Origin: Amyelois transitella
Taxonomy: Eukaryota > Arthropoda > Insecta > Lepidoptera > Pyralidae
Direction: 5' to 3'
Assembly: GCF_032362555.1 (NCBI RefSeq)
Contig: NC_083525.1
Coordinates: 2,093,501 to 2,157,500, forward strand
Length of the DNA: 64,000 nucleotides
Positions 7,400 through 58,976 of the stretch are shown here, one piece after another (within the stretch, counting starts at the first letter, position 1; each line of letters starts with the position of its first letter). The position numbers and the translations under genes were made by a program. Under the pieces are notes generated by a model. That model saw only the letters and a program-made list of their open reading frames with translations. It had not been told where the DNA came from and searched no databases.

Positions 7400-10300
7400 C
7401 TTTCCCTCACTAGCTAGAAAAGTTTGTAGCCCCAAGTTGGCTCTTAACTTGATGAGCCTGGGCTTTGGAACAGCCTTCGTCAATAAATCAGCTAATTGTT
7501 CAACTGAGCTTGTCTTCATAATATGAACCAGTCCCTCTTGCACTGTCTCTCTAACAAAAAAGTGTCTCACTCGGATATGCTTGGTTCGCTTATGAAATAC
7601 GGGATTGTTTGCAAGCTGAATGGCTGCTTCATTGTCTACTTTTAATGTTGGTACATTTTCCAAGCATGTTAGTTGACTGAAAATTCTTTGAAGCCAGACC
7701 AACTCTCGTGCTCCTTCACTTGCTGCAACAATCTCAGCTTCAGTCGTTGAAATCGCTACCGATGGTTGCCGTTGGCTTAACCACGAAACAGCTCCTCCAG
7801 CAAAAAGACAAGCGACTCCTGTTGTTGAACGTCCAGTCATATCATCACCTCCGTGATCTGCATCACTATAACCTTCAACCAAGTTTCTAACAGAATTTGC
7901 TTCATATCTTAAGCCAAAGGATATTGTTCCCTTCAGATATCTGAATATCCTTTTTACTCTTAGCCAATCACTTTCGGTTGGGTTTTCCAGTTTTCTAGAA
8001 ACTACTCCAACAGCATAAGCTATATCAGGCCGTGTGCCTGTCATAAGGTATGCTAAAGCACCTACTGCTTCTCTGTATGGAAATTGCTTCTCAGAATCTC
8101 CATTTCGCACTTTCCCTAATTCAGAAATCTGATTTCTTTCAATTGGTGTCGATACTGGATTACATTCTGACATTCGAAATCGATCCAAAATCTTCCTTGT
8201 ATAAGCTTCTTGTTTAACATATACAGAACTGTCTTCAGATCTCTCAATTTCCAAACCTAGATAGTAAGAAGCAGGTTTTATTGTGATTTTTATTGTACTT
8301 CCTAATTCTTTAAGGAACTGGTGTGCCAAAGCTTCATCTGTTGTTGCTACAAGTCCATCGTCCACATAAAGAGTTATCAAAATTTTCTTGCCTTTCATAA
8401 TCTTTGTGAATAGACAATTATCAGAAGAACTCTGTACGAAACCTTTTTCTAGCAGGATTTCCGCAAAGCAAGAATTCCAGCAGCGTGGTGCTTGCTTAAG
8501 TCCGTATAGGCTTCTCTTTAATCGACAGACTTTTGATGTGCCATCGCTAAATCCATCAGGCTGACTCATGTAAATCTCTTCTTCGACCTTGCCATTTAGA
8601 AATGCAGTCGACACGTCAAATTGCATCAGATGTAGTTTTTCTTTGGCGCTGACACTTAACAAAGCTCTTATTGTAGCCATCCGGGCCACCGGACTATAGG
8701 TCTGTTCATAGTCAATCCCTTTTCGTTGCTTGAACCCTTTTGCTACAAGTCTTGCCTTGTATTTGTCTATTGTGCCATCTGGTTGGCGTTTAATTGTAAA
8801 GACCCATTTACATGGAAGCGCTCTTTTGTTTGGCGGCAAATCACACAACGTCCAAACTTCATTATCTTCAAGAGACTTAAGTTCACTAGCCATGGCCTTT
8901 TGCCATTCAGCTCTATCTTCTCTCTCAAGAGCTTCCTTATAGGTCTCAGGAAATCTCTCTACACCCACAAAACACACATAATCATCAAACTTCTTAGGAC
9001 GCAGAATTGTTGATCTATCTCTCAGATTATAACGAGGCTCCACTTCTGTTTCAAGAGGCTCTACTATTTCCAACTGATTTTGATCAGCATCAACAAATAC
9101 TTCTTCCTCGTGTAAGCTTTCCCTTGAATTATAATGTGGATTGTCAATCATCGTAGGTGTTACTTCAGAGTTCTCTCTATCTTGAATTCTTTGATCTTGG
9201 TCTTCTCTAGTTAGACTATTTTCTCCCTCTAGACCATGATCAAGACGATCTGCATTTTCAGGCAATTCTTGAATGTTTTCACAATAATCGTTGTTTGGCG
9301 CTCCCTCTGACGAAATAGGATTATTGATGATAGTCTTGAATTCAACATCAGATTCAAACGTTATGTCCCTCGACTTCAACGTCTTGACTCCATCCCAAAC
9401 ACGATAGCCATCATCATTCTCGTAGCCGACTAAAATGCCTTTAATCGCTTTTTTCTCCATTTTCTTACGATTCTGTTTTGGAACATGTGCGTAACATGTA
9501 CTACCAACAATCTTAAGATGGGATATCTTAGGTTTTTTCCCAAACCACAGTTCATATGGTACCTTATCTGCCTCTCTTGTAGGCCCGGTCCTATTTAGAA
9601 GATATGTAACTGTGTTAATTAATTCAGCCCATAGTACTTGTGGTAACTCTCCTCTTGCATGCATTATCGATCTAGCAGCCTCTACTAATGTCCGATTTTC
9701 TCTCTCACTACAGCCATTCTGCTCTGGCGTGTATGGCATTGTTAATCGCTGCTGAATACCATATCTCTGTAATATTTTACGAACGTTTTCATTATTGAAT
9801 TCGCCACCATTGTCACTCAGAAGAGTTTTGACAGTATGCCCAGCATTCTTTACTTCTTGAAGCATTAAAAGGAGTTTATCTTTAACTTCCGATTTGTGTC
9901 TAATGAAGTAAACCATGCGATAACTCGAATAATCGTCCTTAAATAAAACGTAGTATTGATATTTCGAGATGCTTTTTGCGAAGGGACCACAAACGTCTGT
10001 GTGAATTAGCTCTCCAACTGCTTTAGCTCTTTCCCTTGTCCCAAACGGCTTTCGGTGAGACTTTCCATAAATACAACCTTCACACGTCATTTTATCTGGA
10101 CTAAGTTGAATGCCTAACTCACGTTTTACCACGCGAATAACATGTCGTTTGTCCTGGTGCGCAAGTCGTTCATGATATAACTGTAGCAAATTAGAGCCTG
10201 TCACAGCGTTTATTTCTATAGCTGAATGCTTAGTCGGAACAATTGTCTTTATTTCTAACTTATAAAGTCCACCACAATGGGACCTGCTTCCAACAACTTT

Positions 10301-11506
10301 AGTCGTGCCGGCAATATCCAGCTTGCACTCTCTGGTTGTAGAAGTAAACACACTATTTTGCACCTTATCTTGTGCAGCCAATGGTGAAAACAGATTTTTC
10401 GTTAAGGATGGTACTAGCCACACGTTGTTCAAAGTTATTATTTCTTTCTGCCCATTGACATTTGATTCCACCTCTACAGAACCCGTTCCTAAAGCTGGTA
10501 TTGTAGTTCCATCTGCCGTATTGACAGTGTGATCTGAATCAAATTCATGAAAATCATTGAAGAAACTTTTCTTGACAGCAATGTGTACCGTCGCGCCGTT
10601 ATCAACGTACCAATTTTCTCTATCTTGCATCTGATTATTAGAGCAAGCATTTACCATTAACGAAATCTGTTGCACTTGCTTAGACTTTGAACTGGATGCT
10701 GATGTGCCTGAAGTTGGTTTTGGTGGCCTCCCGTCCTTAATCCACTTCTTACACTTCCGAACTCTATGTCCTTTTCCCGAACAATAGTTACAGATCAGTT
10801 GTTCATCCACAGTCTTTTTTCCTTTACGTTCATTAGGTGTAATCACTAGCGTCTCTTGTTTTGAGTCTGACTCTTGACTACCTAACTCTCTTTCGAACGT
10901 ACACAGATGACTCGTCAAACTATCGATCGTTCTGTCTGACTGTTTGAGCATTAGCCAACTTGACTTAAAGTTAAAATATTTGTCATCAAGCGTATCTAAG
11001 ACTTTACATATGAGGAACATTTCAGGGAGTTTAGCGTCAGGGTCGATTTTTGAAATCTCTACCTTTAATTCTGTCCATAAATTTTTGAGATGTGACATAT
11101 GTGTTGGAATGTCATCTTCTTTCTTATGCCGAAACCCAAAGAATTCTAAACATAAATTATACGCTCTGTCGTCTGTTTGTCCATCAAATAGTCTATGCAG
11201 CTCTTGCCAAACTTCATGTGCGGTTCTAAATCTCATAACTTTTTTGAGTGTATCCTCTGACATATTGGTTGTTAACATGAGTAGAGCACCACTCTCAGTC
11301 CGCCTATATTTAGCCATCGCAGAATTATAGGTGCTGATTTCGGCGTCACCTGCTCCGTCATTAAGAATAGGTTTCATAAGCTTACCCTCTACTGCTTCTA
11401 AAGCACCTTCCGTGCCTTCAAGCATAATAGAAATTTTATATTTCCAGGTAGCCCAGTTTTCCTTTCCTGTTAACTTTCCAATTTCAATTTTTGTAGAAAA
11501 ATCCAT
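7394..11506 (-). CDS. copia gag-pol polyprotein, about 1370 aa
   Basis: Start placed at MDFSTKIEIGKLTGKENW (11504-11506), the usual copia Gag head; the frame is open further upstream into the LTR. Parts in order: Gag with a UBN2-type region; a CCHC zinc knuckle CNYCSGKGHRVRKC at about residues 239-252; an aspartic protease at about 300; the GAG-pre-integrase zinc region (LYHERLAHQ...CEGC, about 440-490); the integrase core (HTDVCGPF...DNGGEF); reverse transcriptase with KARLVAKGF and YVDDG; and RNase H (GYSDADHGGD). The domain order protease-integrase-RT-RNase H is that of Ty1/copia (Pseudoviridae). The single frame looks whole. Known copia elements make Gag from a spliced or processed product. 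Confidence 0.95.
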   Translation of the reverse strand: MDFSTKIEIGKLTGKENWATWKYKISIMLEGTEGALEAVEGKLMKPILNDGAGDAEISTYNSAMAKYRRTESGALLMLTTNMSEDTLKKVMRFRTAHEVWQELHRLFDGQTDDRAYNLCLEFFGFRHKKEDDIPTHMSHLKNLWTELKVEISKIDPDAKLPEMFLICKVLDTLDDKYFNFKSSWLMLKQSDRTIDSLTSHLCTFERELGSQESDSKQETLVITPNERKGKKTVDEQLICNYCSGKGHRVRKCKKWIKDGRPPKPTSGTSASSSKSKQVQQISLMVNACSNNQMQDRENWYVDNGATVHIAVKKSFFNDFHEFDSDHTVNTADGTTIPALGTGSVEVESNVNGQKEIITLNNVWLVPSLTKNLFSPLAAQDKVQNSVFTSTTRECKLDIAGTTKVVGSRSHCGGLYKLEIKTIVPTKHSAIEINAVTGSNLLQLYHERLAHQDKRHVIRVVKRELGIQLSPDKMTCEGCIYGKSHRKPFGTRERAKAVGELIHTDVCGPFAKSISKYQYYVLFKDDYSSYRMVYFIRHKSEVKDKLLLMLQEVKNAGHTVKTLLSDNGGEFNNENVRKILQRYGIQQRLTMPYTPEQNGCSERENRTLVEAARSIMHARGELPQVLWAELINTVTYLLNRTGPTREADKVPYELWFGKKPKISHLKIVGSTCYAHVPKQNRKKMEKKAIKGILVGYENDDGYRVWDGVKTLKSRDITFESDVEFKTIINNPISSEGAPNNDYCENIQELPENADRLDHGLEGENSLTREDQDQRIQDRENSEVTPTMIDNPHYNSRESLHEEEVFVDADQNQLEIVEPLETEVEPRYNLRDRSTILRPKKFDDYVCFVGVERFPETYKEALEREDRAEWQKAMASELKSLEDNEVWTLCDLPPNKRALPCKWVFTIKRQPDGTIDKYKARLVAKGFKQRKGIDYEQTYSPVARMATIRALLSVSAKEKLHLMQFDVSTAFLNGKVEEEIYMSQPDGFSDGTSKVCRLKRSLYGLKQAPRCWNSCFAEILLEKGFVQSSSDNCLFTKIMKGKKILITLYVDDGLVATTDEALAHQFLKELGSTIKITIKPASYYLGLEIERSEDSSVYVKQEAYTRKILDRFRMSECNPVSTPIERNQISELGKVRNGDSEKQFPYREAVGALAYLMTGTRPDIAYAVGVVSRKLENPTESDWLRVKRIFRYLKGTISFGLRYEANSVRNLVEGYSDADHGGDDMTGRSTTGVACLFAGGAVSWLSQRQPSVAISTTEAEIVAASEGARELVWLQRIFSQLTCLENVPTLKVDNEAAIQLANNPVFHKRTKHIRVRHFFVRETVQEGLVHIMKTSSVEQLADLLTKAVPKPRLIKLRANLGLQTFLASEGKY

Positions 11507-11543
11507 GATACTTCGCTTCGATCTTCCAGTGGGGCACAGAACC

Positions 11544-11766
11544 TGATAAAGGCTGAGAATCGTTACCTGCAGTGGAATAGAAGCCCGCGTAGCACACAAT
11601 AGATTTTATACTTTTATTTTAAATACACTACACAATATAATAGATATATTTTATTGAGTTATAAAGATATTAGAATATTCACACATCACAGTTTTTTTTC
11701 AGAAGTCACGAGTGACATGACAGTGTCTTTCTTTTTATTTCTTGCTTGTGCTATACAACCTTAATA
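11544..11766 (-). repeat. copia 5' LTR
   Basis: 223 bp partner of 7177-7399; followed on the plus strand by the ATGCT target copy. Confidence 0.93.
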
Positions 11767-11810
11767 ATGCTGAGGATTGGAGTTGATGATGATGGAGAAG
11801 GTTGCTTCCA

Positions 11811-11828
11811 ATCACGTCGGGGTCACCA
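11811..11828 (-). other. primer binding site, tRNA-Trp type
   Basis: The plus strand reads ATCACGTCGGGGTCACCA, which is the 3' end of an animal tRNA-Trp including CCA. On the element's own (minus) strand this is an 18-nt complementary primer site one base after the LTR. Confidence 0.8.
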
Positions 11829-11829
11829 A

Positions 11830-12084
11830 TGTAGCGGGAGCGATGATTCGGCTCGACCGCCACCAAAGGGAAGATCTTCCGCCAGGCTAGGTGTTATGCC
11901 TGGGGAACCGCGGCTTCGACGATGTTGTGTCGGAGGTTGTATATATAGCTCCAATCCGTGAAATCTTTGAAATCGCGTTCTAGATACTTCGCTGCTATTG
12001 GTTGAGCGCGTCAATTTCTTCGCGATGATTGACAGTTGTTGTTGATTTGATGTTGTTGACGAGTGGCGTAGAGATGTCGCCACA
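11830..12084 (-). repeat. 5' LTR of TRIM-like element
   Basis: 255 bp partner of 6507-6761; repeated as 36360-36614 in the second unit of the big duplication. Confidence 0.9.
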
Positions 12085-12445: not shown

Positions 12446-14377
12446 ATGAAGGACCCTTTTGCATCGGACGCTGGGATCGATTCCCCATCACACAGCCTGA
12501 AAAATGTTGATGGATGTTATAATAATAGCCTTTTTAAGGGAAAAACATTCGCTAATTCACGCCGTGCCTTGCAGTCTGGCGCTGAGAAGATTTCCAGAAC
12601 ATTTAGGAGTGTCAGGAACACATTTGGGAACTTGTCTCAGGTAAGATATACCATATAATGAAATAATGAAAAAATAATAAATATTACATACATACATACA
12701 TATGGTCACGTCTATATCCCTTACGGGGTAGACAGAGCCAACACTCTTGAAAAGACTGAATGGCCATGTTCAGCTATTTGGCTAAATGATAGAATTGAGA
12801 TTCAAATAGTAACAGGTTGCTAGCCCATCGCTTAAAAAAGAATCCCAAGTTTGTAAGCCTATCTCTTAGTCGCTTTTTACGACATCCAAGGGAAAGAGAT
12901 GGAGTGGTTCTATTCCTGGGCACCACACGGCACACATAATAAATATTGACGAGAAGATTTCTTAGGGAGAACTTATAAACTACCAAAGTACTGAGTAGAT
13001 TTATGTAACATAGGTTCTCTGTTTTACAAAGCAGTTTCTTAAGAATTCAATAATGTAGTACAATGTGAATGTGGGATCCATCAGCAATCAGCTTTTTTGA
13101 TTTTTGTTAAAAAAATCTGATCTTTTACAATAAGAATATACCAGTGAACTGGTTTGTTAAACAAAATCTTATTTGTTAATATGTTTTGTATGATATTAGC
13201 ATTTGAGGCTGGCTGGCAGACGCAGGCATCGGTTAGCTGAGATGGGGTCACCATGCCGGGCTCCTTCTACGCCTGTTATGAAGAAAAAGGTAAATATCCA
13301 TTTTTATTGAAATTTAACATATAATTATTTAGTGAGGATTCCCGTAAACCCCGCAGGAATGAAAATTATTATTAGGATTTTTCTAACACATACAGGCAAT
13401 ACTAGAGTTTGGATAAACCTGCCGTCTTACTGCCATCATTATTTTCTTTTTAATATTTCAGGTTCTTGGCAGAAGTCCAGCCAAACTGTACAGCCCGTTT
13501 GGCATTGAAACGCCTCACAGCCGCGACTTCAGGATGTCTCCGTACATGCCCGACACTCCAGAACATGGGTTTGTATATGATTTCGATTCTGGTATAAATA
13601 TTTTTTATTTAATGTACCATCTTTATTTGTATTAAGTAATAAAGTATATTATTTAATATTAACTTAAATTTAAGTACTCCATTGTTTACTCCTGCTTTAT
13701 GCATTTAATAGTTAAATATAAAGACCATAAGTGATTCTATCTGTACTTTACTATATGACAATTTAATAAATTAGATGCATCAAATGACAATTTATGGAGT
13801 GGACGTATAATTTAGTTAAAGCCACGCCCATCACGGTAATTGGTGGTTACTTATTCAAAAACTGGGCTCCATTCTGTTCTACTTAAGCACTTATTTTGTA
13901 ACTTAAGGCTTATAAAGTTAGATTTATGAAGTTATGAACGATTTAAGTGATCGCTTGCACGCAATAACGTAGTTGAAATAAACTTGATTATTTTGTCACT
14001 TATTCTGATAAACAGACAAATAAATATACATAGCTCCGTACATGGGCAGGAAATACGTGTATGTTTTTATTTTTATTTCAAAAGTCGATTCCGGTGCGTA
14101 TGTAAGTAGTCTTGCTGTAACTGGCACTATGTCACGCCTCTTTCCCGGAGGGGTAGACAAGTTATTTAATTTGTAAATTTTTCAAATACTTACCACTAAC
14201 CTAGTTAATAATTTGCTGGCTGTTGTCTTTGATTAAAAAAAACTGGAATTAAACAAATAATGCGCAACATTACAACAAATATGTGATTTTTTCAGTTTAT
14301 CGCCGAAACGTCACAAAAGCATAGCGCAGTCATGGCATCTGCTGTCCAAGAAACGGCCGCGGGTTCTCTTCCATTGA
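12446..14377 (+). CDS. small basic S/T-P-rich protein of unknown function, 157 aa, four exons (unit 1)
   Basis: Exons 12446-12640, 13200-13289, 13462-13568 and 14296-14377 join in phase (donors GTAAGA, GTAAAT, GTTTGT; acceptors ATTAG, TTCAG, TTCAG) to 157 codons plus TGA. Start chosen at MKDPFASDAGIDSPS; the frame extends upstream but without conserved-looking sequence. The protein is basic. It has SRRALQSGAEKISRTFRSVR (a helical stretch), LRLAGRRRHRLAEM, then LGRSPAKLYSPFGIETP and a basic tail LSKKRPRVLFH. At least nine Ser/Thr-Pro sites (SPS, GSPC, STPV, RSPA, YSPF, ETPH, MSPY, DTPE, LSPK) with nearby basic residues suggest a nuclear target of cyclin-dependent kinases. No family recognised. 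The exon 3 donor was picked because only it keeps the last exon open. AATAAA at 14467 is a likely poly(A) signal. The TRIM-like LTR ends about 360 bp upstream of its ATG. Confidence 0.72.
12687..12934 (+). repeat. family A repeat in S/T-P gene intron 1
   Basis: A nearly full copy: ACATACATACATATGGTCACG head, CCCTTACGGGGTAGACAGAG, body blocks, and a CACCACACGGCAC tail. Counterpart 37217-37464. Confidence 0.85.
14125..14158 (-). repeat. short RTE-like LINE 3' tip
   Basis: TCACGCCTCTTTCCCGGAGG followed by GGTAGAC is the reverse complement of the SAYPSGKEA-stop end seen at 21925-22168. Only the tip is present. Confidence 0.5.
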
Positions 14378-14598: not shown

Positions 14599-14616
14599 AT
14601 TATATAAGTTATATAA

Positions 14617-15005: not shown

Positions 15006-16527
15006 TACTGTAGAAACAAATTTTAATCCTAAGTATGTATAATTTATTCGCTTTGCCAAATATTTAATTGAAATCCAAATTTTCTCTTAGAAATGAAAGC
15101 GAAAACGATTTTTTTTGTCAAAGCAACAAATGGTAGATTTTATGCACGTCACAGGAAGGCTTGATAGAAGGCTGGAAGGAAATAATCTAATTCAAAATAT
15201 TTTTATATAATTTTATTTATCATCAATCCCAAATGAACCTCTATTGTTCATTCGTGTTATTTTATTTCTGAATAAAAGTATTTTTTTAAACCATAATTTT
15301 AATGTTTTTATAATAGCTTCAAGCCTTCTATAGCCGTTTTTATGCAATTGGTGCTAAATGTCATGTAATTGTATTAGCTTCTCTGCTAATGCATCTGGAA
15401 TGGGGCTTATGTAATATATATTATATTCTATATGAAAAGGACTGAACATTATTCTTCCTGAAGTTTCAAGTATATTATGTAAGTATGTAGAATTTTTATA
15501 ATTCCCATTTTCATAATTTCAACAATTATTGTTCAATGTGAAAAGAAAAATGAATCAGAAATAACCGGTTATTATGTTAATGCCTTGTTTTTCTCATTGT
15601 GGCAAGTAAAATTCTAAATTTCTTGTGTTTGAGTAAAAAAATAATAACATAAGCACTTACACTAAATTACATCTGGTTTATAGCTTATTTTGCAAGCTGG
15701 CATTTGGCAAACTATAGAATATATTATTTTTTTATTAATATTATTATATGGTATATTAATAACAACAAGTATTAAAGTCATATCCAGTATTAAAAATGCC
15801 AAAATTGTATCGTAAAATTGCGAGAAAGGTGATGTATTTACTACGCTTCGCTACGACAATATTAGTCTGCTAACGCTTAGTTTTAAGTGGTATAAGATGC
15901 CTATAATATTTTATAATTGATGTAATAATATTTAGGTTTTTTAAAAAGTTATTTATTAAGAACAAAAGTAGTCGCAGGAAAATGTTTTTCCAACGCTACT
16001 TAACAGGTTTTAGTGTTTTTGTAAAGAGTGATTTTATTTCGTAGGTATCCAATAATAAATTGTGTAAGACTGATTTATCAGTAATCGATATACACATAGC
16101 ATTTTTTAGATGTTTTTCAATAATTTGGCAAATTTATTTTTGTATAGATAGGAGTATGAAATACCAGTCATTAAATTTGTTTTTTTTTCTGATGCAAGTC
16201 TTCATTTATTCAAGACTTATTTTTATTCTTTAGGTAGTTGTCTAACTAAATATAATTACAATTTCACTATTAATTTCAACTATTTCTATATAATGCTGCA
16301 GAAACGATAATATAAATGTACCTAAATCTTTTCTTACAATGCTAGAGTAATACCAATTTATGTCATTATGTCGAAGGGTTTATTTAACCCTGCCAATGTG
16401 TGTATTTATTAATTAGTAAAAGGCGTCTTTATGAAAAGTACTTATCTAAATTTTCACAGCAAAATTATGAAACAGAATAATTTTCCTTAGAAATCGGAAG
16501 AATCGATTTTTTTATTTTTTAAATACT

Positions 16528-18915: not shown

Positions 18916-18919
18916 CAAA

Positions 18920-18990
18920 CATCATCAACCGAGTCTTTACAAAGACTGTTGGCTCTGTTTACCCCGCAAGGGATATAGATTTTATGTATG
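18920..18990 (-). repeat. family A head fragment
   Basis: GAGTCTTTACAAAGACTGTTGG-like block, then CCCCGCAAGGGATATAGA and TATGTATGTA: the head end only, reverse orientation. Counterpart 43448-43518. Confidence 0.65.
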
Positions 18991-19052
18991 TATGTAAACC
19001 GCACACCGACTAACCGACTCTATTTAAAAAAATTCAATAAAATTCTCTCTAG

Positions 19053-19270
19053 TACATACATACATACATATAATCACGTCTATATCCCTTGCGGGGTAGA
19101 CAGAGCCAACAGTCTTGAATAGACTGATAGGCCACGTTCAGCTGTTTGGCTTTTTGATGGAATTGAGATTAAAATCGTGACGGGTTGCAAGTCCATTGCC
19201 TACAAAAAGAATCCTTTGTTTATAAGTCTATCCCTTAGTCGCCTTTTACGACTTCCGTAGGAAAGACATA
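19053..19270 (+). repeat. family A repeat
   Basis: TACATACATACATACATATA, ATCACGTCTATATCCCTTGC, GGGGTAGACAGAGCC and a CCTTTTACGACTTCCGTAGG end. Counterpart 43581-43798. Confidence 0.85.
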
Positions 19271-19989
19271 TTACCCGAAACGAGAATCATATACTGAGTG
19301 TCCGCTTTTAATATGCGACACTATTTACCAGTACCACGTTATTTTAATAAAACGTGTTAAAAATTTGAGGTAGATTTATATTATGATACTTAATTCAGGC
19401 ACCACTTCTTCACAACAGGTCATCCATAAAATATATGTTTTTATCTATAATATTGTTTAGAAAGTAACTGTTATATTGTGGAGAATTTTTTTTTTAATTT
19501 ACCCAAATTGTGTAAAAATACTTTCATTTGCCAATAAGATCACTCAATTAAGAAAGTGTTTCAAACTTATAGCACTGACATTATGCCCGGTACAGTTGCC
19601 CACAGATAAACTTTACTCTCTTAGTAATATAGGTGCCAGTCTGAAACTTGTATAATACCAAGGATGTTACACTGATTTTCCAAAAATACAGTATTATAAG
19701 CTCAGCTTCAGACAAGTAAATTTTTCAACAACGTATTTTGATTCGAAGCCTTTTATCATAAACTTACTTTATAACAATTGCAGTTTGTACTTAAAGAATA
19801 GGATCGTATCAAAATATCTCGAATGAGATATACAAAAAACTTAAAAATAATTTTCTTAAAAATATATAGTAGGAACGTTAAATTAACGTAACAAAAATAC
19901 ATAAACGCTAAAAGAAATCCGGCCCGGGTCGTCTCGGGAAATTCTGAAACAAAATTTTTGCATTAGAATGTAATAAATGTCAGAAAGCG
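19271..19989. other. gene-free stretch
   Basis: AT-rich, no exon or recognised repeat. Counterpart 43799-44517. Confidence 0.45.
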
Positions 19990-20240
19990 CACCCTGGGCC
20001 CCGTTATCATGCGCAAAAGGTCTTTTCGTAAAATATCACTTTAGCAAAATGTCTTTTTTCGCAGATTGTCTCTGTCGCAAAATATCGCGCCAGGGACTTA
20101 GAATAACATTTGATTTTCAAAGCACAATCATTTATTGGAGTCATCATATAAAATTAGAGATACATTTTGCGAAAGAGACATTTTGCGACCAGGGGACATT
20201 TTACGAAAGAGACCAATTGCATAATGAGCCGCCCCAAAGC
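19990..20240. mobile_element. fold-back MITE-like element
   Basis: Left GGTCTTTTCGTAAAATATCA and right TTTTACGAAAGAGACC (ending 20211) are inverted. Inner blocks (GCAAAATGTCTTTTTTCGCA against TTTTGCGAAAGAGACATTTT) also pair, and outer flanks (CCCCGTTATCATGCGCAA and TTGCATAATGAGCCGCCCC) extend the match. This gives a long hairpin of about 220-250 bp, with short CAAAATGTCTCTTTCG-type units repeated inside each arm. No transposase. The open frame across it (19977-20333) is not a gene. Counterpart 44518-44768. Confidence 0.6.
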
Positions 20241-20591
20241 ATATTTTGGCGGCGGAGGGTGCAATTAGAAATAACTAATTATGAGACAGAAAAAGCAGTG
20301 TCCAGCACGTTTGTATATCTGACCAGTCGTTGATTAATACTCGACTTGAACAACATGGTAAAAACAAAATGGCGGCCTAGGCTTGATCTAAATCTTGTCA
20401 CCACTGTGGGTAAGTCAACAAAATTACTGAGCATTTCATTATATAGATACTTAATTTAAAATCTTCGCAAGATAATAGATATGTATCAAAATATTTTAAT
20501 TTTTATGATTATAAATGATTTAAAACTTTCGCATTGCATCACACTAGGTATTTATTAATAATACAGATATTAAACGCGCACGATACGAACC

Positions 20592-21098
20592 TTTATAAAA
20601 ATAAATAAAGATACAATAAAGGTATGTTACGCGCGTGTTTAATACCTTTATTATTCATAAATAGTATTTTAATGACTGATACTAATGGTCCAAATTGTGA
20701 TAAGAATATAAACACAGATATTATTAACAAGTTAAGTTACCTTTAAAGGGTCGTAGTTGAAACTTTATCAAAATACTATGACTCATTCATTCATTGATTT
20801 AGTGAACATGTTCAATATTTGTTGAGAAATTCATTGATTTAGTGAACATGTTCAATATTTGTTTATAAAAATAAATAAAGATACAATAAAGGTATGTTAC
20901 GCGCGTGTTTAATACCTTTATTATTCATAAATAGTATTTTAATGACTGATACTAATGGTCCAAATTGTGATAAGAATATAAACACAGATATTATTAACAA
21001 GTTAAGTTACCTTTAAAGGGTCGTAGTTGAAACTTTATCAAAATACTATGACTCATTCATTCATTGATTTAGTGAACATGTTCAATATTTGTTGAGAA
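20592..21098. repeat. 270-bp tandem repeat, about 1.9 copies
   Basis: TTTATAAAAATAAATAAAGA begins at 20592 and again at 20862; the ~237 bp that follow are the same in both, and a short part (TTCATTGATTTAGTGAACAT) recurs a third time between them. Each unit has an inverted repeat AATAAAGGTAT...ATACCTTTATT around GTTACGCGCGTG. Counterpart 45120-45626. Confidence 0.85.
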
Positions 21099-21239
21099 CA
21101 TTGGTACTCAATTTCCGGAGCTACTTACCTCATTTTATCCAAGTTTAGACATAATAAAATCAATGCACTTAGTGACTTCACTCAAATAACCAACATACAA
21201 ACCACCTTTTATCTGTAGTCGGCTAACAAAAAGATATAC

Positions 21240-21480
21240 ATACGGAAGTCCCCCCATACGTGACCTGTCGATCCGTTCTTCGCTTCCGGTACCGCTGTGC
21301 GGAGCACTTATTGAATATACTCTTGTTCTTCCACGAAGCGAACAGATTACTAGGCTTGGGCGTTCGTGGGTAGTCGTCAGTGCTTTCGCTTGATGACGAA
21401 TTGTAATTCGAGAATGTTCTATCGAAGTTTATAGTCCTCTTTATGACTGGCTCGTTTGTTGGTTTGTTCTGTGAAAGTGT
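21240..21480. other. GC-richer unexplained patch
   Basis: Around CCCCCATACGTGACCTGTCG to ATGACTGGCTCGTTTGTTGG the base composition rises and inverted words occur (GTTCTTCGCTTC and CACGAAGCGAAC). It could be an old promoter or first exon, or part of an unknown repeat. No reading frame convinces. Counterpart 45768-46008. Confidence 0.3.
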
Positions 21481-21493
21481 TTTATATATTTGT

Positions 21494-22168: not shown

Positions 22169-22184
22169 AATACTAACCAATGCT

Positions 22185-36296: not shown

Positions 36297-36301
36297 ATGC
36301 T

Positions 36302-44517: not shown

Positions 44518-44768
44518 CACCCTGGGCCCCGTTATCATGCGCAAAAGGTCTTTTCGTAAAATATCACTTTAGCAAAATGTCTTTTTTCGCAGATTGTCTC
44601 TGTCGCAAAATATCGCGCCAGGGACTTAGAATAACATTTGATTTTCAAAGCACAATCATTTATTGGAGTCATCATATAAAATTAGAGATACATTTTGCGA
44701 AAGAGACATTTTGCGACCAGGGGACATTTTACGAAAGAGACCAATTGCATAATGAGCCGCCCCAAAGC
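44518..44768. mobile_element. fold-back MITE-like element, unit 2
   Basis: Copy of 19990-20240. Confidence 0.6.
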
Positions 44769-45119
44769 ATATTTTGGCGGCGGAGGGTGCAATTAGAAAT
44801 AACTAATTATGAGACAGAAAAAGCAGTGTCCAGCACGTTTGTATATCTGACCAGTCGTTGATTAATACTCGACTTGAACAACATGGTAAAAACAAAATGG
44901 CGGCCTAGGCTTGATCTAAATCTTGTCACCACTGTGGGTAAGTCAACAAAATTACTGAGCATTTCATTATATAGATACTTAATTTAAAATCTTCGCAAGA
45001 TAATAGATATGTATCAAAATATTTTAATTTTTATGATTATAAATGATTTAAAACTTTCGCATTGCATCACACTAGGTATTTATTAATAATACAGATATTA
45101 AACGCGCACGATACGAACC

Positions 45120-45626
45120 TTTATAAAAATAAATAAAGATACAATAAAGGTATGTTACGCGCGTGTTTAATACCTTTATTATTCATAAATAGTATTTTAA
45201 TGACTGATACTAATGGTCCAAATTGTGATAAGAATATAAACACAGATATTATTAACAAGTTAAGTTACCTTTAAAGGGTCGTAGTTGAAACTTTATCAAA
45301 ATACTATGACTCATTCATTCATTGATTTAGTGAACATGTTCAATATTTGTTGAGAAATTCATTGATTTAGTGAACATGTTCAATATTTGTTTATAAAAAT
45401 AAATAAAGATACAATAAAGGTATGTTACGCGCGTGTTTAATACCTTTATTATTCATAAATAGTATTTTAATGACTGATACTAATGGTCCAAATTGTGATA
45501 AGAATATAAACACAGATATTATTAACAAGTTAAGTTACCTTTAAAGGGTCGTAGTTGAAACTTTATCAAAATACTATGACTCATTCATTCATTGATTTAG
45601 TGAACATGTTCAATATTTGTTGAGAA
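45120..45626. repeat. 270-bp tandem repeat, unit 2
   Basis: Copy of 20592-21098, with the same repeat number. Equal copy number in both units is a further sign that the large duplication is very recent. Confidence 0.85.
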
Positions 45627-46021
45627 CATTGGTACTCAATTTCCGGAGCTACTTACCTCATTTTATCCAAGTTTAGACATAATAAAATCAATGCACTTAG
45701 TGACTTCACTCAAATAACCAACATACAAACCACCTTTTATCTGTAGTCGGCTAACAAAAAGATATACATACGGAAGTCCCCCCATACGTGACCTGTCGAT
45801 CCGTTCTTCGCTTCCGGTACCGCTGTGCGGAGCACTTATTGAATATACTCTTGTTCTTCCACGAAGCGAACAGATTACTAGGCTTGGGCGTTCGTGGGTA
45901 GTCGTCAGTGCTTTCGCTTGATGACGAATTGTAATTCGAGAATGTTCTATCGAAGTTTATAGTCCTCTTTATGACTGGCTCGTTTGTTGGTTTGTTCTGT
46001 GAAAGTGTTTTATATATTTGT

Positions 46022-46279
46022 TACATACATACATATGGTCACATCTATATCCCTTGCGGGGTAGACAGAGCCAACAGTCTTGAAAAGACTGAATGGCCAC
46101 GTTCAGCTATTTGGCTTAATGATAGAATTGAGATTCAAATAGTGACAGGTTGCTAGCCCATCGCCTAAAAGAAGAAACCCAGGTTTTTAAGCCTATCCCT
46201 TACTCGCCTTTTACGACATCCATGGGAAAGAGATGGAGTGGTCCTATTCTTTTTTGTATTGGTGCCGGGAACCACACGG
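46022..46279 (+). repeat. family A repeat, unit 2
   Basis: Copy of 21494-21751. Confidence 0.85.
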
Positions 46280-46452
46280 AATATATTTGTTTACAGAGAT
46301 ATACGAGCTTAAGTAGCGAGTAGCGTCGGTGGTCAAATCTGTAAGGTGTCCGGCTAAAATGCATGATTCGCATGAAGACATGACCAAATCCCACTTCAGC
46401 CATATGACCAATGACTAATTTTCAAAGTTACGTATATTATTATTTTTAATAC

Positions 46453-46696
46453 TAACAGATAAAGTGGAGGGATAGGTCGGAGTGGGAAGACCTAGACGAA
46501 CGTATCTTGATCTAAATAAGAACGTCCTGGTAAAGGGTCAGGTCAAAAGTATCCCGAAACCGCCGAGCTTGCATGAAGAGAGTTATGAATGTGGATGAAG
46601 CGAAGGAAGTATGCAGAGATCGTGGCAAGTGGAAAGAGGTAGTCTCTGCCTACCCCTCCGGGAAAGAGGCGTGATTCTATGTATGTATGTATGTTT
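46453..46696 (+). mobile_element. RTE-like LINE 3' end, unit 2
   Basis: Copy of 21925-22168. Confidence 0.75.
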
Positions 46697-47381
46697 AATA
46701 CTAACCAATGCTCTTAGAGTGAGGGGAAATATCGTAAGGAACCTGCACATTCAGGCAATTGGATTTGTAATCATGATCGATCCAATAAGGGTCAGGTTTA
46801 CCTACATAGGTTGCGGAGGTCAGATGGGAGTTGCTTGCTTCGTGTAAAATCCTGACTCACCCAACCAGGGTTTAAAGTCGGCGAAACCCTGGCGAAACTC
46901 TCCAGAGTGGTGAGGATGTAACCGGTACTAAAGCCAGGAGGAAGAACAAAGCAAGCATAAAGAAATAGAAATGTTTTATTTTATTTTAATTTATAAAAAT
47001 TAAATTGGCAACTCTTAAATGTAGTCTTGAGTCTAATACGAGTACCACCTTTGATTTCGGTGACTGTATACATGCAACATAGGTAATACAAACATACATA
47101 CATAAACTTCACTGTCACTATTTGGGTCTCAATTCCATTATTTAGCCCACAAAGCTGAGCGTAGCCTTTCAGTCCTTTCAAGACTGTTGGCTCTGTCTTC
47201 CCCGCAAGGGATAAAGACGTGACTATATGTATGTATACATAAAATCATGCCTCTTATCCAGAAAGGTAAGGTACTACAATTTTCCTTCTTTCAAATTTAT
47301 CCACATCCCAGCTTGCCTGTTTATGGTAGAGTAACCTGACTTTATCAATATGGAAATTTAAATCTATTAATGTCAACTCAC

Positions 47382-50300
47382 CATAGTGTCCAAATGCGTG
47401 GTATCCGGCGACGTGTACCTTTTTACCCCGTCAGGGTACATCGGGTTTGACATCGGCCGCTCCATTTCTTCTCGTCTCATCATAGAGGGCGCCACGGGGA
47501 CATAAGGTTGGCTCACAACCGGCCGACTCATGCCAGCCATCTCTTTCACCATCATGAACTCCCGGTGCAAACCCTCATTTGAAGACAACTGCTTCTCAAA
47601 CTGAGCCATCATTGAATTTTCAAATATCACAACATCCGTATGCTTTATAATACTTATCAACGCCCAAGCCAAAGAATCATTGAACGGCAGAATCGCCACG
47701 CGTTCCAATATATGCGTAGCGACGTCCAAACTGAACGCCCTCTGATTCTCAATCACAAAGTCGGTCAATTTTATGAAAACCGGCTTGAACCGCGTAAAAT
47801 TCTGCGTGTTAGCTATCGTCTCCATAAAATAATCACACAACTGTTTACCCTGTATCACATATTTCAGTAGCTCTTCACAATTACTGAGGTCTATATTGTT
47901 TAAATGCAACAATGCCTCTTCTAAGACGTGGATTTTGAGCTCGGCATCGTCCTGGGAATTCGGATTTGCTTTTGTTACGAAATCTATTGCCATTTCCACC
48001 AATAACTTAGTCAAGTCCCGTCTCTTACACTCATCAACGAAGCAGATACCGAACTTTCTCCTCAATACTGGCCAACACTTCAACAACATGTATTCTTGAA
48101 TGAATACATCTTCACTAAGTTTGATTAATTTCGCGCACACATCGATTGGTAATGGCTCGACATGAGGAAATCGACATCTCAATTGATTCTTGCAACTCCC
48201 TATCAGAAAGAAGAAACACATTCCTTTGAAAACAACACTCTTCACTCCTGGAGACGGCTTGAACAACGTTGCTAATAAACAAGGCCCTTTTTTCACTATT
48301 GCTGGCTTAACACTGACATTGGGATCAGGTAACTTCTCAGTACAGTCAATTTGATTACTACCTAGTACTCCTTCTCTGACAACAGACGTAGAATCCGCAT
48401 TTTGTTTTTCACACACTATTGTTGTTGGTTTCACATTTGGAACATTTTTAGGCGCCGGAGTAGTAACGTTAGTAATTTTAGTAGGATTATAGACAATAGT
48501 GTTATGAGGTACATCTCTTGTTACAGATTGTGGGATGTATTCCTCATATTCAGGATTATTGTATAGAGGTGGAGAACAAGTGCTGTTTCTATTAGATTCA
48601 AATCCTATACTCTCTGCATATAATGATAGAGCATCTTCATCATCATTTTGGTCGAAAGGAATGTATGCGATATTGTCTGAAGCAAAATTCTCATTTAAAT
48701 CAAATTTACGATCTCCATAATCATTTTGGTCTCTGCTATGGTTACCATTGTCTAAACCGGAATGTTCAGCAGATTTATTTATATTTTTCGCCACGACAAC
48801 ATCGGTTGGTTTGACAAAAGAATCATTAATATTATCCGCTTTTTCTGCATTATTTACTTCCGTTTGTGTTCCATCTTCATTATCAGTCAAAACTTTATTG
48901 ATATGTCTACACTGAAGAATAATATTACTTTCCTCTTGTAAACTTTGATGTATTTTGTCCTTTAATTTTTTAGAGTTAACATTGGTGTCTTCATTCTGGT
49001 AACCAACCCAATTTATCATTTCTAAATCTATTTTCTTCAGACTCATTGATAGTTTATCTAATGCCTTACTAATTTTACTAACATTGCTATTCATGGTGTT
49101 AATACTGATGTTTTTTTGAGTGATTATTGGAGACATATGAGATTCGGATGAAGTGCTCAAATTTAATGAGTGTTTACTTATTATTTCACTTTCCTTGTAA
49201 GACTTACAATTTGTGCTACATTCAGATTCAGAGCTGTCACTATCTGAAGACAAAGAAGACTTACTAGGAGTTTTAGGGGTAAGCCCTTTGGAATCTATTT
49301 TGGTCAATTTGACTTCTGGCAATTTTTTGTCAATCAGTACGAAATCTGACGAGGTGACGGCGTTCAAAGAGGTTGTGTTACTGGAATCCGATATATCTTT
49401 GGTCCATGATAGTTCTGAACAGACAGACGTTTTACGAGAATCTATTGCTCCAGCATTATCGAAAGTTCCATTGTCCTCTTTTTTTACTGCAACTTTTGGT
49501 TCATTATTTGGTGCATCTTTAGCTGCAATAGATGGTGTATTTTCTTGAACGCCTGCTATATTTTCAGCACTTTTCTTACCTCTGGGTGTTCTTTTCCTGA
49601 CAATTTTTGGTTTAGCGACTGTGACGGTACGAGTTTTGTTGCTGTTGTCGCAGTCTTCAGAATTCCGTTTGACGACGATATTCATTTCCGTTATTCTGGA
49701 TTGCGTCCATTTACGTTTGGGTGGGTTGACGATACCTGAGATTGAAGGAGAATTATATTGGAAAAGTGTCATGGGTGTTCAAAATATTTTGTTATCAAGA
49801 ATTTTAATCTATAAGGATACAAGAATGTACAATGAGATTTTAGGACCTGGGTATCCACAACAAGTTATTTACACTTTATGAGATAGTTTTGACAACTTGA
49901 TCACGCATAATACTCCTGACATTGCCTGGTTTCCGCATTTGACCAAAATTCGAGATTGGGAAAGACACTTAAATTCTGAACTAAAGTGACAGTGACAAGT
50001 TAGTTAAAAGTTCTAACTTAGTAAGATTCCATGCTGGTTTAATAACTAAGAAAAAATAAAGTGTACCAGCTACTTCACTTTAGGGAAACGCTAATAAACT
50101 TGGGATTCTTCTTTAAGGCTAGCAACCTGTCACTATTTGAATCTCAATTCCATCATCATTAGGCTTTGGCTCTGTCTGCCTCATAAAAGGAATTAATGTA
50201 TGTCATAATTTACCCTCCGAAGGGCTGACTAGTTTTCTCTTCTTAGGACCTCTCTTGACAGGGTCTAGAGGTAGTTGCATTGCTGTTTTTTTCGTCAGCG

Positions 50301-51879
50301 TTTGCTTAACCGGGCTGGTAATCTTCCTAATAATCTTTTGCTTTGGCTGCTCAAAAACATCTGAAAAACATAATATTATTTTAACATGGTGGAGAAATAG
50401 AAAGAGATTTCAAAATAGGATGTCTCCATATCTTTCCCATGGATATCGTAACAGCGACTAAGGAACAGGCTTAAAAAACTTTAAAACTTTGGATTCTTGG
50501 GATGGCTAGCAATAAGCACCTTGTCACTATTTGAATCTTTATTAAGCCATACAGCTACACATGGCCTTTAAATCTTTTCAAGACTGTTGGCTCTGCCAAC
50601 CCCGTAAAGGATATAGATGTGAGTACCTTCAGTGTCTGTACTGCCAGTGACTGGCGAGCTTGGACAAATATTCATGTTTGATGTTTCCGGAACATTTTCC
50701 ACTTCTTCAACTTTCTTTTTTCTCCCTCGTTTCCTTCCCACTTTAGTCACAGTCTGGACTTCAGATTGCGAAGGAAAAACGATTGGCTCCGATTTGTTCA
50801 GTTGTGCTCTTGCAACTTTAAAAAAATAAGGATGTTTAATATATTTATATATGTTCTAGTTTTTGCGCAAGGCTTCGGAAGCAGCCGTAAACTTAGTTTA
50901 AAGTAATTTATTTGACGGCAACCAATGTTGTGAAACCAAAAGATATGACAATTATTAAGTGATATAAAGTATCCTATAATACTGAATAAAAATTTAGAAT
51001 ATTTTTGCTTTGCTCCTGTCCTGATTCCAGAAAAAAAGCAACAAATATACTTCCAAAGGTCTTTTCTATATGTGTGCCAAATTTTGTCCAATAGTTTTTG
51101 AGTTTATTTGTTACAAATATACAAAAATACCAATCTTTTTATTAATAGTGTGGATAAAACTCTTCCATTAATCAGTGACTGAGTAATGAGTGATGCACAG
51201 CTCACACCATTGATTTTAGTTAGTATGTTATTTCCCTTTGTATGTGGTAGACCACTAGGAGGGCATGAAGGGAGGGTTTCCCGTTTCTAATACCAATTCC
51301 AAGGTCCTCTTACTCTTCCTTGGAAGCCTTTAATCCATGTTCATAGCTAACCAGATACGGCCCCAGGCAAAACATGAGTAATAAACCTATTTAAGAAATT
51401 AGTGTAGTAAGGTTCCCAGCACTTTAATATGAGGACTCCATACACTTGCATGACTGTGCATGGTATATAAATATTTTTTTTTAACAAACCTTTATTTGCT
51501 AACTCAAGCTTGTCTTTGGATGTCAGATATTTGCTCTTTTTTTCCAGTAAACTTTGATTTGGAGATACTAGGTTTTGGACTGATCTGCTGAGGTCTGAAA
51601 AAATAAAACTAGTTTCAAGCAAAAAGCATAAAGAACAATCAGGATGTGCATTGTTCTCTTAAATCAAAGAGTGTTAACATTAGAAACATAACAAAATACC
51701 AAAGAAGCAGCTTTTTTGGTATACGATTTCGCTAATAGTCACTTACTCTTTTTAAACACTTTTATCTTGATAGCCGTTGGTGTTTTCAGTGTTTCCTTAT
51801 TTTCTTTAGGCTTTTGAGGTCTTCCTTTAGCAACTGCTTGAACTGTTTCAGGTTTAGCAGCAGCTTTTCTTGGAGCCAT
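47382..51879 (-). CDS. nuclear AT-hook and CCCH zinc finger protein (unit 2)
   Basis: Exons 51747-51879, 51490-51594, 50627-50815, 50214-50360 and 47382-49735. Same as 22854-27351 except for two substitutions in the last exon: one silent (Val codon) and one changing Leu to Ile at about residue 775 (EMALDF to EMAIDF), in the helical part after the CCCH finger. The frame stays open. As in the first copy, any exon after the GTGAGT donor was not found. Confidence 0.8.
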
Positions 51880-52520: not shown

Positions 52521-54521
52521 ATGCCTGCAAAATATAAGATTGTGATGATTCGCCACGGCGAAAGCGAGTGGAATCAGAAAAACCTGTTCTGTGGCTGGTA
52601 CGACGCTGATCTCAGTGATAAGGGTAGGTTGCTGTAATTTTCCGCTTTATTGTCACTTATTTAATATTTTATGAAAATAAACTGGCTGTAGGCTGTTGAT
52701 GTTAATGAACATTTTAACCATTTTGTAGGGCGTGAAGAAGCCGTGGCTGCCGGCAAGGCCTTGAAAGCCGAAGGTTATCAGTTTGACGTCGCCCACACAT
52801 CGGTTCTGAAACGAGCTCAGATTACCCTGAACACCGTTCTCCAGGAGATTGGGCAGCCAGACTTGCCTGTGAACAAAACCTGGCGTCTGAATGAGAGGCA
52901 TTATGGTGGACTCACTGGCTTAAACAAAGCTGAAACGGCAGCCAAATATGGCGAGCAGCAGGTATACTTAATTTGCGTGGTACATTTTTTTATTGGGACC
53001 AACAGTCTTGAAAAAACTGATAGGCCAAGCTCAGCTATTTGGTTTAATGAAAGAATTGAGATTCAAATAGTGACAGGTTGCTAGCCCATCACCTATAAAA
53101 GAATTCGCACATGATAGAATAATATTAGAATTGTATAGTGGTGAATAGCAGAATACATTACAATATTTTGAAACAAATACCCTTACTTGACAAAACTTAT
53201 AATAATATTCTTTCATGCTTGCAGGTCCAAATTTGGCGCAGAAGCTTCGACATCCCTCCCCCACCAATGGAGAAAGACCACCCATACTACGACACCATTG
53301 TAAATGACCCCCGCTATGCTGGTGATCCAAAACCTGAGGAATTCCCCATGTTTGAGAGCTTGAAACTGACTATTGAAAGGACATTGCCGTATTGGAACGA
53401 TGTTATTGTGCCACAGGTAAGATGCTTCTCTAAAGGCACATTGTCAAAAGAATACTTACTACAAGTAACTGATAAATGGGATATTTTTGTCTCACTGTCA
53501 TAATATCACTTATTTCTTTTTATCTGGAGCTGAAGCCGAAGAACACTGTTGTTCTTATTATCACTCTTCCTCATATTTTCACTGTATACAGAGACACCAT
53601 GATAGGACTCAATTATTTTTATAATGTATCAACACTAATTAGCATATTTATTTATAACAGTCCACTTTCTACAGATCAAAGAGGGAAAGAGGATAATCAT
53701 CGCCGCTCACGGAAACAGTCTCAGAGGCATCGTTAAGCATTTAGATGGTAAGCAAACAATTAATTTTTGATATTTGTTACATTATACATAGTGATTATTT
53801 TGTTTTGTGTGATAACAGTTGACCTTGGGTCATCAAAACAAACAAGAGCTTTTTCAACAATCTTAAAAATTGTTATCTCAGACATTTGGCTCCAGGAAGA
53901 ATGCTAAAGCAGCCTTATTTTATGACAAAAAGGGTAAATAAATAAATAAATAAATAAATATATACGGGACAAATTACACAGATTGAGTTAGCCTCGAAGT
54001 AAGTTTGACACTTGTGTTACGAGATACTAACTCAACGATACTATATTTTATAATAAATACTTATATAGATAAACATCCAAAACCCAGGCCAATCAGAAAA
54101 AGTTCTTTTCTCATCATGCCCTGGCCGGGATTCGAACCCGGGACCCCCGGTGTCACAGGCAAGCGTACTACCGCTGCGCCACAGAGGCCGTCAAGGGTAA
54201 TTCCAGTTCTGTTCAATGTGCATTTTATATAAAAATGTAATAATAAGCACCTTTTGTTTTTTCCTTTTATTAATTTACCAAATGTTTTTCCTACCCAGTA
54301 AAAGTTTTTCCTAAGACTTTTATGCAATATCTTATACACATTTGTACTCTTCAGAGCTCAGTGATGCTGCCATTATGGAGTTGAATCTGCCGACCGGCAT
54401 TCCTTTTGTCTATGAACTCGATGAGAACATGAAACCTGTTGACTCAATGGTCTTCCTCGGAGACGAGGAAACCGTAAAGAAGGCTATGGCTGCCGTCGCC
54501 GCCCAGGGGAAAGCCAAGTAA
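52521..54521 (+). CDS. Pglym78: phosphoglycerate mutase, 255 aa (unit 2)
   Basis: Exons 52521-52623, 52729-52961, 53225-53416, 53675-53747 and 54355-54521. No difference from the first copy was seen, in exons or introns, and all catalytic residues are kept. The complete promoter region and 3' UTR are included in the duplicated block, so this is a full second gene and not a retrocopy (introns are kept). Confidence 0.96.
53959..54192 (-). repeat. tRNA-derived SINE (family C), unit 2
   Basis: Copy of 29431-29664 in intron 4 of the second PGAM gene. Confidence 0.88.
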
Positions 54522-55618: not shown

Positions 55619-57222
55619 TTAAGAATCAGGTAGACTTTCTTTTAAGTCCTCCATCACCACATCTATATTAACATGTCTTTTTGATTTTTCTTCATCGTTT
55701 TTTGTAAATTTCCTGCCAGTATACGTGAATTTTTGCTTGCCATTTATAAAACTAAATTGTTTCTGGTCTTTTGAGCTTTCACCGTCCACCTCCATGGCTG
55801 ATGACCTTTTCTTAATCTTTTTTTGTTTTTGAAATTTACAATTTGTCTCGAATCGGAAATCTTTTGGTAGTTTATGTATTTTTACGCAGTGCGATTTTCT
55901 CTCTTCGGCGTTAATGAATTTCTCCTTGCACTCTTCTATATAGCAGCAATACTGAAAATTTTTAACATGTTATGTTAAAAAAATGAAAATATATACTGAG
56001 CAAGCTGTCTTACTTCATTGGTAAAATTTAAATTAGCAATATCCATGGTGCCGGGAACCACACGGCACGGTATAAAATTAACCAATTGTGTGTGTCGGGC
56101 CACGCCCGTTGTATGCTTCCGTAGTTGGTTTTATCTTTTATCAGCTAAAAACTTAGTAAGTATTTAGTCAGGTCTGTTTATGCTTCTCTGCACAGATGCT
56201 CTCTGGACGATAAGCATATACTGACGACCTTACATCAAAACATTGATGAATGTGGCTGAAGCAAAAGGATCTTAGGTGCTTAACAATTGGCTTGGAAAAA
56301 AAAGCTTGAGCAAATGAAAGTTTTTTTTTTTTTTTTTTTTCAAAAAAAGAATGCTTACCGAAGGTTTTTTCTCGGCCATGACAGCGAAGAACGAATCGTG
56401 AGTCTCTTGTATATGCAAGTCTAATAAATGGGGTGACGGCATCACTTTCTTACATTGGGCGCAAGAGTATCTGTGTGACGAGTTGTAGTGGTTCTCAAAG
56501 GATAGCAGAGATTCTGTGGTGTAATAACATCCTGGGACTGCACACGTTGTTGTTATGCTGCAAACATGTGATCAGGAATTGGTAAGATAATAAAAAAAAA
56601 ATATTTAAAATATATGTATATAATTCCGACGCCTTAAGAGGTAGAATATGTGTGCACAAAAACTGTAAGTACCTAATTAATTTAGACCTATATTGTAACC
56701 ATATTCAATGAATAAAAAATATGATTAAATGCGGTTTGCACGTTATTTATGTGGTAGGTAAGTAAATGTCAGAGCAGTAGAAATCGAAATGAGAATTGCA
56801 ATTTTGAGCAGATAACTGCGTACTAAGCAGTTATTGCCATTTCGGTATCCATCGCATTATGAGCATCGAACGATAGGATTCAAACCTGTGAATTGTGTGT
56901 ATCACGAATTTTTAGTCGGTTAACTTAACCGTTCAACCGCCAACGATATCGAGGAATCCAAAAATGAGTTATTTTCGTAGCTATAATGTGCAAACATAAT
57001 TTTAATCGGTCGATGGGTTTAGCCATGAAATCATAAGCAACAGACTTCCGAATTTATAATATCAGTATGGAACACTTACACCTCATGGCATAAGTCCTCG
57101 TCATCGACGTCGTAAACTCCGAGCCTGGGAAGCGGTGGATCGTCCTTGAACAAGTGGTCATCTAACTTCCGCCTACCGACGCCATATTTGTCCAGCTGTT
57201 CTAGAAGTGTGCTCATGTCCAT
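55619..57222 (-). CDS. ZNF511-like C2H2 zinc finger protein, 224 aa (unit 2)
   Basis: Exons 57080-57222, 56359-56557 and 55619-55951, matching 31091-32694 with no difference noticed. The upstream flank, over 1.5 kb, is in the duplicated block, so the copy should keep its promoter. Confidence 0.88.
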
Positions 57223-57787: not shown

Positions 57788-57995
57788 TAAATATATACCC
57801 GACAAAGTTAGCCTCGAAGTAAGTTCGAGACTTGTGTTACGAGATACTAACTTAACGATACTATATTTTATAATAAATACTTATAAAGATAAACATCCAA
57901 GACCCAGGCCAATCATGCCCTGGCCGGGATTCGAACCCGACACCTCCGGTGTGTGTCAAAGACAAGCGCACTACCGCTGCGCCACAGAGGCCGTC
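57788..57995 (-). repeat. tRNA-derived SINE (family C), unit 2
   Basis: Copy of 33260-33467, again inside a split family A repeat (57733-58063). Confidence 0.85.
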
Positions 57996-58680
57996 GAAAT
58001 TGATAATCAGATCGTGATAAGTTGCTAACCCATGAGCTAAAAGAATAATACCCATGTTAAGGCATGGAGCTAGGCGACAGCCTGTGTTATAAGCATTTAC
58101 CAAATTCAAATTATAGGGCACTTCATGGATAGATAGATAGATTCTTTATTGCAACATAAGAAAAAGAAAATCAGAAAAAAATAACTGGTAATGAGGTACA
58201 AAGGCGGACTTATCGCTAAAGCAATCTCTTCCAGTCAACCTTAGGGTGGGAGGAAATTAATTAAAATGGCAAGGCTATCATATTAATTGATAATTGTCAT
58301 ATCTTTTGGTTTTACAATATTTGTTTACGTCAAATAAATTACTCAAAACTAAGTTTACTGCCACTTTCAAAGCGTCATTACCTTCAGTGAGTAATAATCT
58401 GCGTGGAAAGAGAAGCAACTGGCACAGTTATTTCTTCGCTAGATAAAAGCGCTTATAACCATGATGATGCTTATGAGCAGATGGAGTGATACTCTTCTAA
58501 AGTGCCGCTAACCACACGGCACGTTTGTTATAGTCAAACATTTTGTATCTTATCTCTAGAATATAGTATACTCAACCTCACAGATAACATCTATACTAGT
58601 CGTAATGCCAAATCATTGTGATTAAGTAATAATAGCTTGTCTTTATACCTAGTAATCATGATGTGATGACATCATGATTT

Positions 58681-58754
58681 GTATGATCATTATATGTTAA
58701 ATTCATGTTCATCATTGATGAACGATGAACATGAATTTTACATAATGATCATAC
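58681..58754. repeat. long inverted repeat, unit 2
   Basis: Copy of 34153-34226. Here it is followed by the intact family A repeat, showing the ancestral arrangement. Confidence 0.85.
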
Positions 58755-58976
58755 AAACATACATGTAATCACGTCTTTATCCCTTGCGGGGTAGACAGAG
58801 CCAACCGTCTTCAAAAGACTGAAAGGCCACGTTCAGCTGTTTGGCTTAATTATATAATTTGGATTCATATTCATTACAAATTCAAATTCAAACCCATGGC
58901 GTAAAAGATGAATCCCACGTTTATAAGCCTATCCCTTAGTCGCCTTTTACGACATCCATGGTAAAGAGATGGAGAC
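58755..58976 (+). repeat. family A repeat spanning the right end of the duplication
   Basis: Head AAACATACATGTAATCACGT, ATCCCTTGCGGGGTAGACAG, body, and CCTTTTACGACATCCATGGT. The duplicated block stops at 58784, 30 bp into it. Confidence 0.88.

Follow-up and report, generated by a model that had tools for sequence, protein, structure and literature searches.

A near-identical 24.5-kb direct tandem duplication carrying four genes in Amyelois transitella, probably real and very recent

Introduction

Recent segmental tandem duplications that arise by non-homologous joining or template switching consist of direct copies, meet at an inner junction without homology, keep intact outer edges and carry genes along. 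An arrangement of this kind is described here for the pyralid moth Amyelois transitella, in a window of 64,000 nucleotides (RefSeq assembly GCF_032362555.1, contig NC_083525.1, positions 2,093,501 to 2,157,500 of the forward strand; all coordinates below are those of this window). In it, a unit of about 24.5 kb with phosphoglycerate mutase (PGAM) and three neighbouring genes stands twice in direct tandem. The locus differs from the duplications just named in that its breakpoints lie in two different kinds of repeat, one of them beside a strong hairpin.

Two further described systems resemble it in part. In palindrome-linked breakage, as presented in PMC7999016, a long inverted repeat is likewise found right at the breakpoint; here, the link is positional and was drawn post hoc, and the resulting copies are direct rather than inverted. 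False duplications in genome assemblies share with the locus adjacent near-identical copies with duplicated genes; gaps, read depth at the haploid level and discordant reads are named as their marks by Ko et al. (2022, PMC9516828). In contrast to these, the present window has no gap, and the divergence between its copies is far below the published diversity of the species.

Results

Comparison of the 64-kb window with itself by BLAST gave a single long direct match, between 9727-34259 and 34257-58788, with 99.98% identity, which is beyond chance given its length and identity. In a global alignment, copy 1 of the unit (9727-34256, 24,530 bp) and copy 2 (34257-58784, 24,528 bp) showed three differences, which occupied four alignment columns. 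The dinucleotide TA at 15752-15753 was present in copy 1 and missing from copy 2 (at 40281). The remaining two were single-nucleotide variants (SNVs) 10 bp apart, at 23459 and 23469 in copy 1 and at 47987 and 47997 in copy 2, both located within the long open exon of a CCCH-type gene on the minus strand. The first (G in copy 1, T in copy 2) is a missense change, encoding Leu in copy 1 and Ile in copy 2, and the second (T in copy 1, C in copy 2) is silent in a Val codon. A 24.5-kb direct tandem duplication with three differences had been claimed in a sequence-only reading of this DNA, and both comparisons bore out the claim with the same edges. The copies are adjacent, lie in the same direction and are highly similar across coding and non-coding DNA, as is found in recent segmental tandem duplications. 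No N letter occurs in the 64 kb, hence there is no gap between the copies, and this mark of a false duplication is lacking. Unit edges and differing sites are spaced by at most 10.8 kb, so that reads of common long-read length could link both copies. Each unit also harbors a smaller, nested tandem duplication (20592-21102 in copy 1, 45120-45630 in copy 2; period 270, 1.9 copies, 100% matches).

The divergence between the copies was set against the published diversity of the species. Genome-wide nucleotide diversity (pi) is given in the table of PMC7850051 as 0.017517 (FIG) and 0.017089 (R347), with 0.17911 printed for ALM, while the text of the same paper assigns 0.17911 to R347 and 0.01752 and 0.01799 to ALM and FIG; the value 0.17911 is probably a slip. 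With a pi of 0.0175, a species-level value from which the heterozygosity of the sequenced strain may differ, about 429 differences are expected in the unit between random alleles, and three were seen. The copies thus resemble each other more than 100 times more closely than random alleles do. Such a divergence (3 versus about 429) led us to reject ordinary retained haplotypes, with a caveat for the heterozygosity of the strain and for swept windows of low diversity, which in this species are reported with a pi of 0.00002-0.00041 and of zero in one population (PMC7850051). Searched at word starts, the body of PMC7850051 mentions neither phosphoglycerate nor mutase, Tim22 or zinc finger, so that the window is not shown to lie within the published sweep. 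Among the papers listed in a literature search, none on the newer Amyelois assembly was found. The sequence-only reading had already judged that retained haplotypes fit badly, on an assumed diversity of about 1%; with a pi of about 0.0175 this judgement becomes stronger than it had been stated.

At the left outer edge (9727), the duplication begins inside a Copia-type long terminal repeat (LTR) element on the minus strand (6507-12084). Its 255-bp LTRs (6507-6761 and 11830-12084) are identical at 252 of 255 positions, the other three differing, and ACAT(T) is repeated at both flanks of the element. A single open reading frame (ORF) of 1,403 codons (7397-11605) runs unbroken through position 9727 and matched RVT_2, rve, Retrotran_gag_2 and an SH3-like domain above the Pfam cut-off, while gag_pre-integrs in the whole ORF stayed just below it (28.0 versus 28.4). 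LTRs, a short flanking duplication and gag, integrase and RVT_2 in one ORF together place the element in the Copia-type class. The left edge falls where the match to the integrase core ends. Copy 2 contains the 5' part of the same element (34257-36614, minus strand), and there the ORF (34252-36135, 628 amino acids) is cut at the inner junction, with a stop just past it (34252). The element further contains an unusual internal direct repeat of 223 bp with one mismatch (7177-7399 and 11544-11766), situated at the end of gag and after pol; 415 bp of extra sequence follow this repeat before the 3' LTR.

At the right outer edge (58784/58785), a short interspersed repeat (58750-58974, plus strand) crosses the end of the unit. 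It was aligned with five other copies in the window, picked from the list of self-matches; other partial copies, e.g. 1586-1699 and 28471-28575, were left out. At the position of the edge, three of the five compared copies were continuous (one with a one-base change), one was gapped and one lacked the head of the repeat. At the inner junction (34256) this repeat is cut, and its head alone remains. Because the Copia ORF and the interspersed repeat run through the outer edges and both are cut at the inner junction, both outer edges are ancestral and the inner junction 34256/34257 alone is derived. The ancestral order can be read as left flank, complete Copia element, four genes, hairpin, interspersed repeat and right flank. 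The evidence for this polarity, i.e. the intact Copia ORF and the continuous repeat, as well as the hairpin at the breakpoint, are additions to the sequence-only reading.

The inner junction joins the truncated interspersed repeat directly to the truncated Copia integrase, with no bases shared at the join; inspection by eye found GCG within one base of both of its sides. No homology between the breakpoints was found, as the longest exact word shared within ±500 bp was 10 bp long and lay off the breakpoints. This disfavors recombination between repeats and favors a template switch or end joining. An unequal crossing over involving two repeats of the same family (non-allelic homologous recombination) could be considered in view of the position of both breakpoints within repeats, but these repeats are of different kinds, they share no sequence at the breakpoints and no hybrid repeat stands at the inner junction. 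It was rejected, and we give it next to no credence. The assembly loop that had been offered as the alternative to a recent duplication is weakened by the same search, because a loop requires the two ends of the unit to have sequence in common. In its simple, repeat-driven form it is disfavored, although the loop keeps some possibility.

Two other origins of the second copy were weighed against this junction. In an assembly artefact, a locus present once would have been passed over twice and the passes connected through a chimeric molecule or an erroneous gap fill, and the three differences would be allelic or consensus errors. A junction that has neither homology nor independent support suits such an origin, as do the two SNVs 10 bp apart, which resemble an allelic cluster, and in some false duplications the connecting sequence lacks read support (PMC9516828). 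Yet the window has no gap, and random alleles should differ at some 430 sites where three were seen. An artefact is unlikely in our view. Against it also counts that an assembler normally needs several reads to follow a false join. In the second case, an extrachromosomal circle of the 24.5-kb segment, closed by the same end-to-start join, would have entered the sequencing along with the genome and been unrolled to give the second copy in the contig. This would yield exactly the observed junction together with intact outer edges, but circles normally occur too rarely to influence a contig, and we regard this origin as very improbable.

Next to the right breakpoint a long imperfect palindrome, predicted to form a hairpin, was found at 34132-34247 (58660-58775 in the second copy), ending 9 nucleotides before the breakpoint. 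Folded as DNA, the segment 34130-34260 reached -36.8 kcal/mol (z -8.8), and none of 200 shuffled sequences was as good. When 120-nucleotide windows over 1-34256 and 58785-64000 were scanned (n = 1,962; mean -8.6, standard deviation 3.7), the lowest energy was that of the window at 34121, at this hairpin (-35.8), followed by -27.4 for the next non-overlapping window. At the left breakpoint no comparable structure was found (-1.9 to -12.3 for windows starting at 9600-9840).

The age of the duplication was estimated with the mutation rate of Heliconius (2.9e-9 per site per generation, PMC4271535). Over 24,528 bp, a single change corresponds to about 7,000 generations, two changes to about 14,000 and three to about 21,000, with Poisson limits of about 180 to 62,000 generations across the three cases. 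These values are rough. The inclusion of the indel is generous, since the rate covers point changes, and any gene conversion between the tandem copies would lead to an underestimate of the age. The divergence is consistent with the earlier suggestion of an extremely recent and perhaps still polymorphic duplication. At the implied effective population size of about 1.5 million, a neutral duplication so young should not yet be fixed. A real duplication might be present on one haplotype only, or the two copies might represent an array of more than two that was collapsed to two. A neutral duplication of this age is expected to be segregating at a pi of 0.0175, and identical extra copies would presumably collapse in assembly; we consider this form of a real duplication quite possible, if somewhat short of an even chance.

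As had been claimed before, four genes lie within the unit, and they are hence doubled. PGAM (27993-29993, plus strand; copy 2 52521-54521) has five coding exons that make up one open frame of 255 amino acids in both copies, and its label is firm; it was the sole gene of the unit with a Pfam match above the cut-off. An uncharacterized S/T-P-rich gene of 157 amino acids (LOC132903166 model, likewise from Amyelois transitella) is located at 12446-14374 on the plus strand (copy 2 36976-38904). The uncharacterized CCCH-type gene occupies 19908-27351 on the minus strand (copy 2 44436-51879; LOC132903165 isoform X1 model, 1,062 amino acids). Its label drew support from the source names of some relatives ('C3H1-type domain-containing'), but no Pfam match accompanied it; the AT-hook of the earlier label is a putative motif. 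For the zinc-finger-like gene (31091-32694, minus strand; copy 2 55619-57222; exon joins set by eye), the earlier label ZNF511 was not confirmed, as a Pfam search gave just two matches, both below the threshold and to other families. The CCCH-type gene and PGAM are transcribed divergently, and the 641 bp that separate their start codons (27352-27992) are likely a shared promoter region that was doubled intact.

The 801-amino-acid open exon of the CCCH-type gene matched LOC132903165 isoform X1 of Amyelois transitella with an identity that rounds to 100%, across 99% of the query, and the next match was from Plodia interpunctella (65%). This top match supports the moth origin assumed in the sequence-only reading. 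The isoform has Ile at the differing site, which is the residue of copy 2, and shared 788 identities with the exon of copy 2 and 787 with that of copy 1. In an alignment of 44 rows, which included isoforms and LOC132903165 X1 itself, this site held 20 I, 12 L, 9 Y, 2 M and 1 S. The change thus says little on function. The I in Plodia, the nearest relative listed, hints that Leu in copy 1 may be the derived state. The numbers LOC132903165 and LOC132903166 follow one another and postdate the LOC106 series of the older annotation, a hint that copy 2 may have been given new identifiers, which we take as a lead only.

In the left flank, a gene of the Tim17/22 family lies outside the duplication (about 4759-5510, minus strand). 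The right flank contains an ORF with a hydrophobic segment (63058-63378), possibly the first exon of a membrane protein gene, and gave no match to a phage collection. ARAGORN reported five tRNA-like bodies: His at 29589-29660, Gln at 33388-33463 and His at 60300-60372, with the first two repeated in copy 2 at 54117-54188 and 57916-57991. These first two sites and their copies barely reached the tRNA gathering score of Rfam (29.4 and 30.1 versus 29). The bodies are probably parts of interspersed repeats and not tRNA genes; the signal is weak and has no bearing on the duplication.

Discussion

Taken together, these results suggest that an Amyelois transitella chromosome probably carries here a segmental tandem duplication that is real and very recent, most likely an event of an ordinary kind, caught very young and with a clear anatomy.

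Several points weigh against this conclusion. Its support comes from the assembled sequence, and the Amyelois database matches probably derive from the same assembly as the window and are hence not independent. A homology-free junction is also expected from a chimeric molecule, and the two neighbouring SNVs could be allelic. The connection of hairpin and breakpoint is one of position, noticed post hoc, and that the hairpin favored a break or stall is our inference. In a scan with 200-nucleotide windows (n = 1,954), moreover, the breakpoint hairpin ranked second (-39.0), behind a site at 18942-19116 (-52.2) that lies away from any breakpoint. That it is the strongest in the locus was thus ruled out for 200-nucleotide windows and holds for those of 120 nucleotides. 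The stronger site (43470-43644 in copy 2 by offset) is made up of two inverted pieces of the interspersed repeat, with 38-nucleotide arms of 97% complementarity and 99 nucleotides between them.

A real duplication would have started from a break or a stalled fork at the end formed by the hairpin and the interspersed repeat. On the sister chromatid, the broken or stalled end would have been connected to a point farther upstream, within the Copia element, either by end joining or by a template switch 24.5 kb back, and one extra copy would have resulted in a single step. Since such a copy would comprise all four genes with their upstream DNA, gene dose should rise. Given the diversity of the species, the duplication would be expected to be segregating still, unless it was fixed by selection or by drift in a colony.

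Were the second copy an artefact, as many as four extra genes in the reference might be false (two of the unit's genes are matched by LOC132903165 and LOC132903166), by which analyses of gene families, of dosage and of single-nucleotide polymorphisms would be misled. If the duplication is real, a moth reference contains several genes that were doubled together very recently, at a junction that can be read as a single step, and copy-number polymorphism of PGAM and its three neighbours would be directly testable in field populations. At its furthest, and we hold this to be decidedly improbable, a hairpin would have started a real duplication of PGAM and three neighbours that was joined into a mobile element and is now undergoing a sweep, or segregating, in a pest of major importance to orchards, possibly in more than two copies. 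The species would then offer a natural dosage series that could be dated, and typed by a single polymerase chain reaction across the junction.

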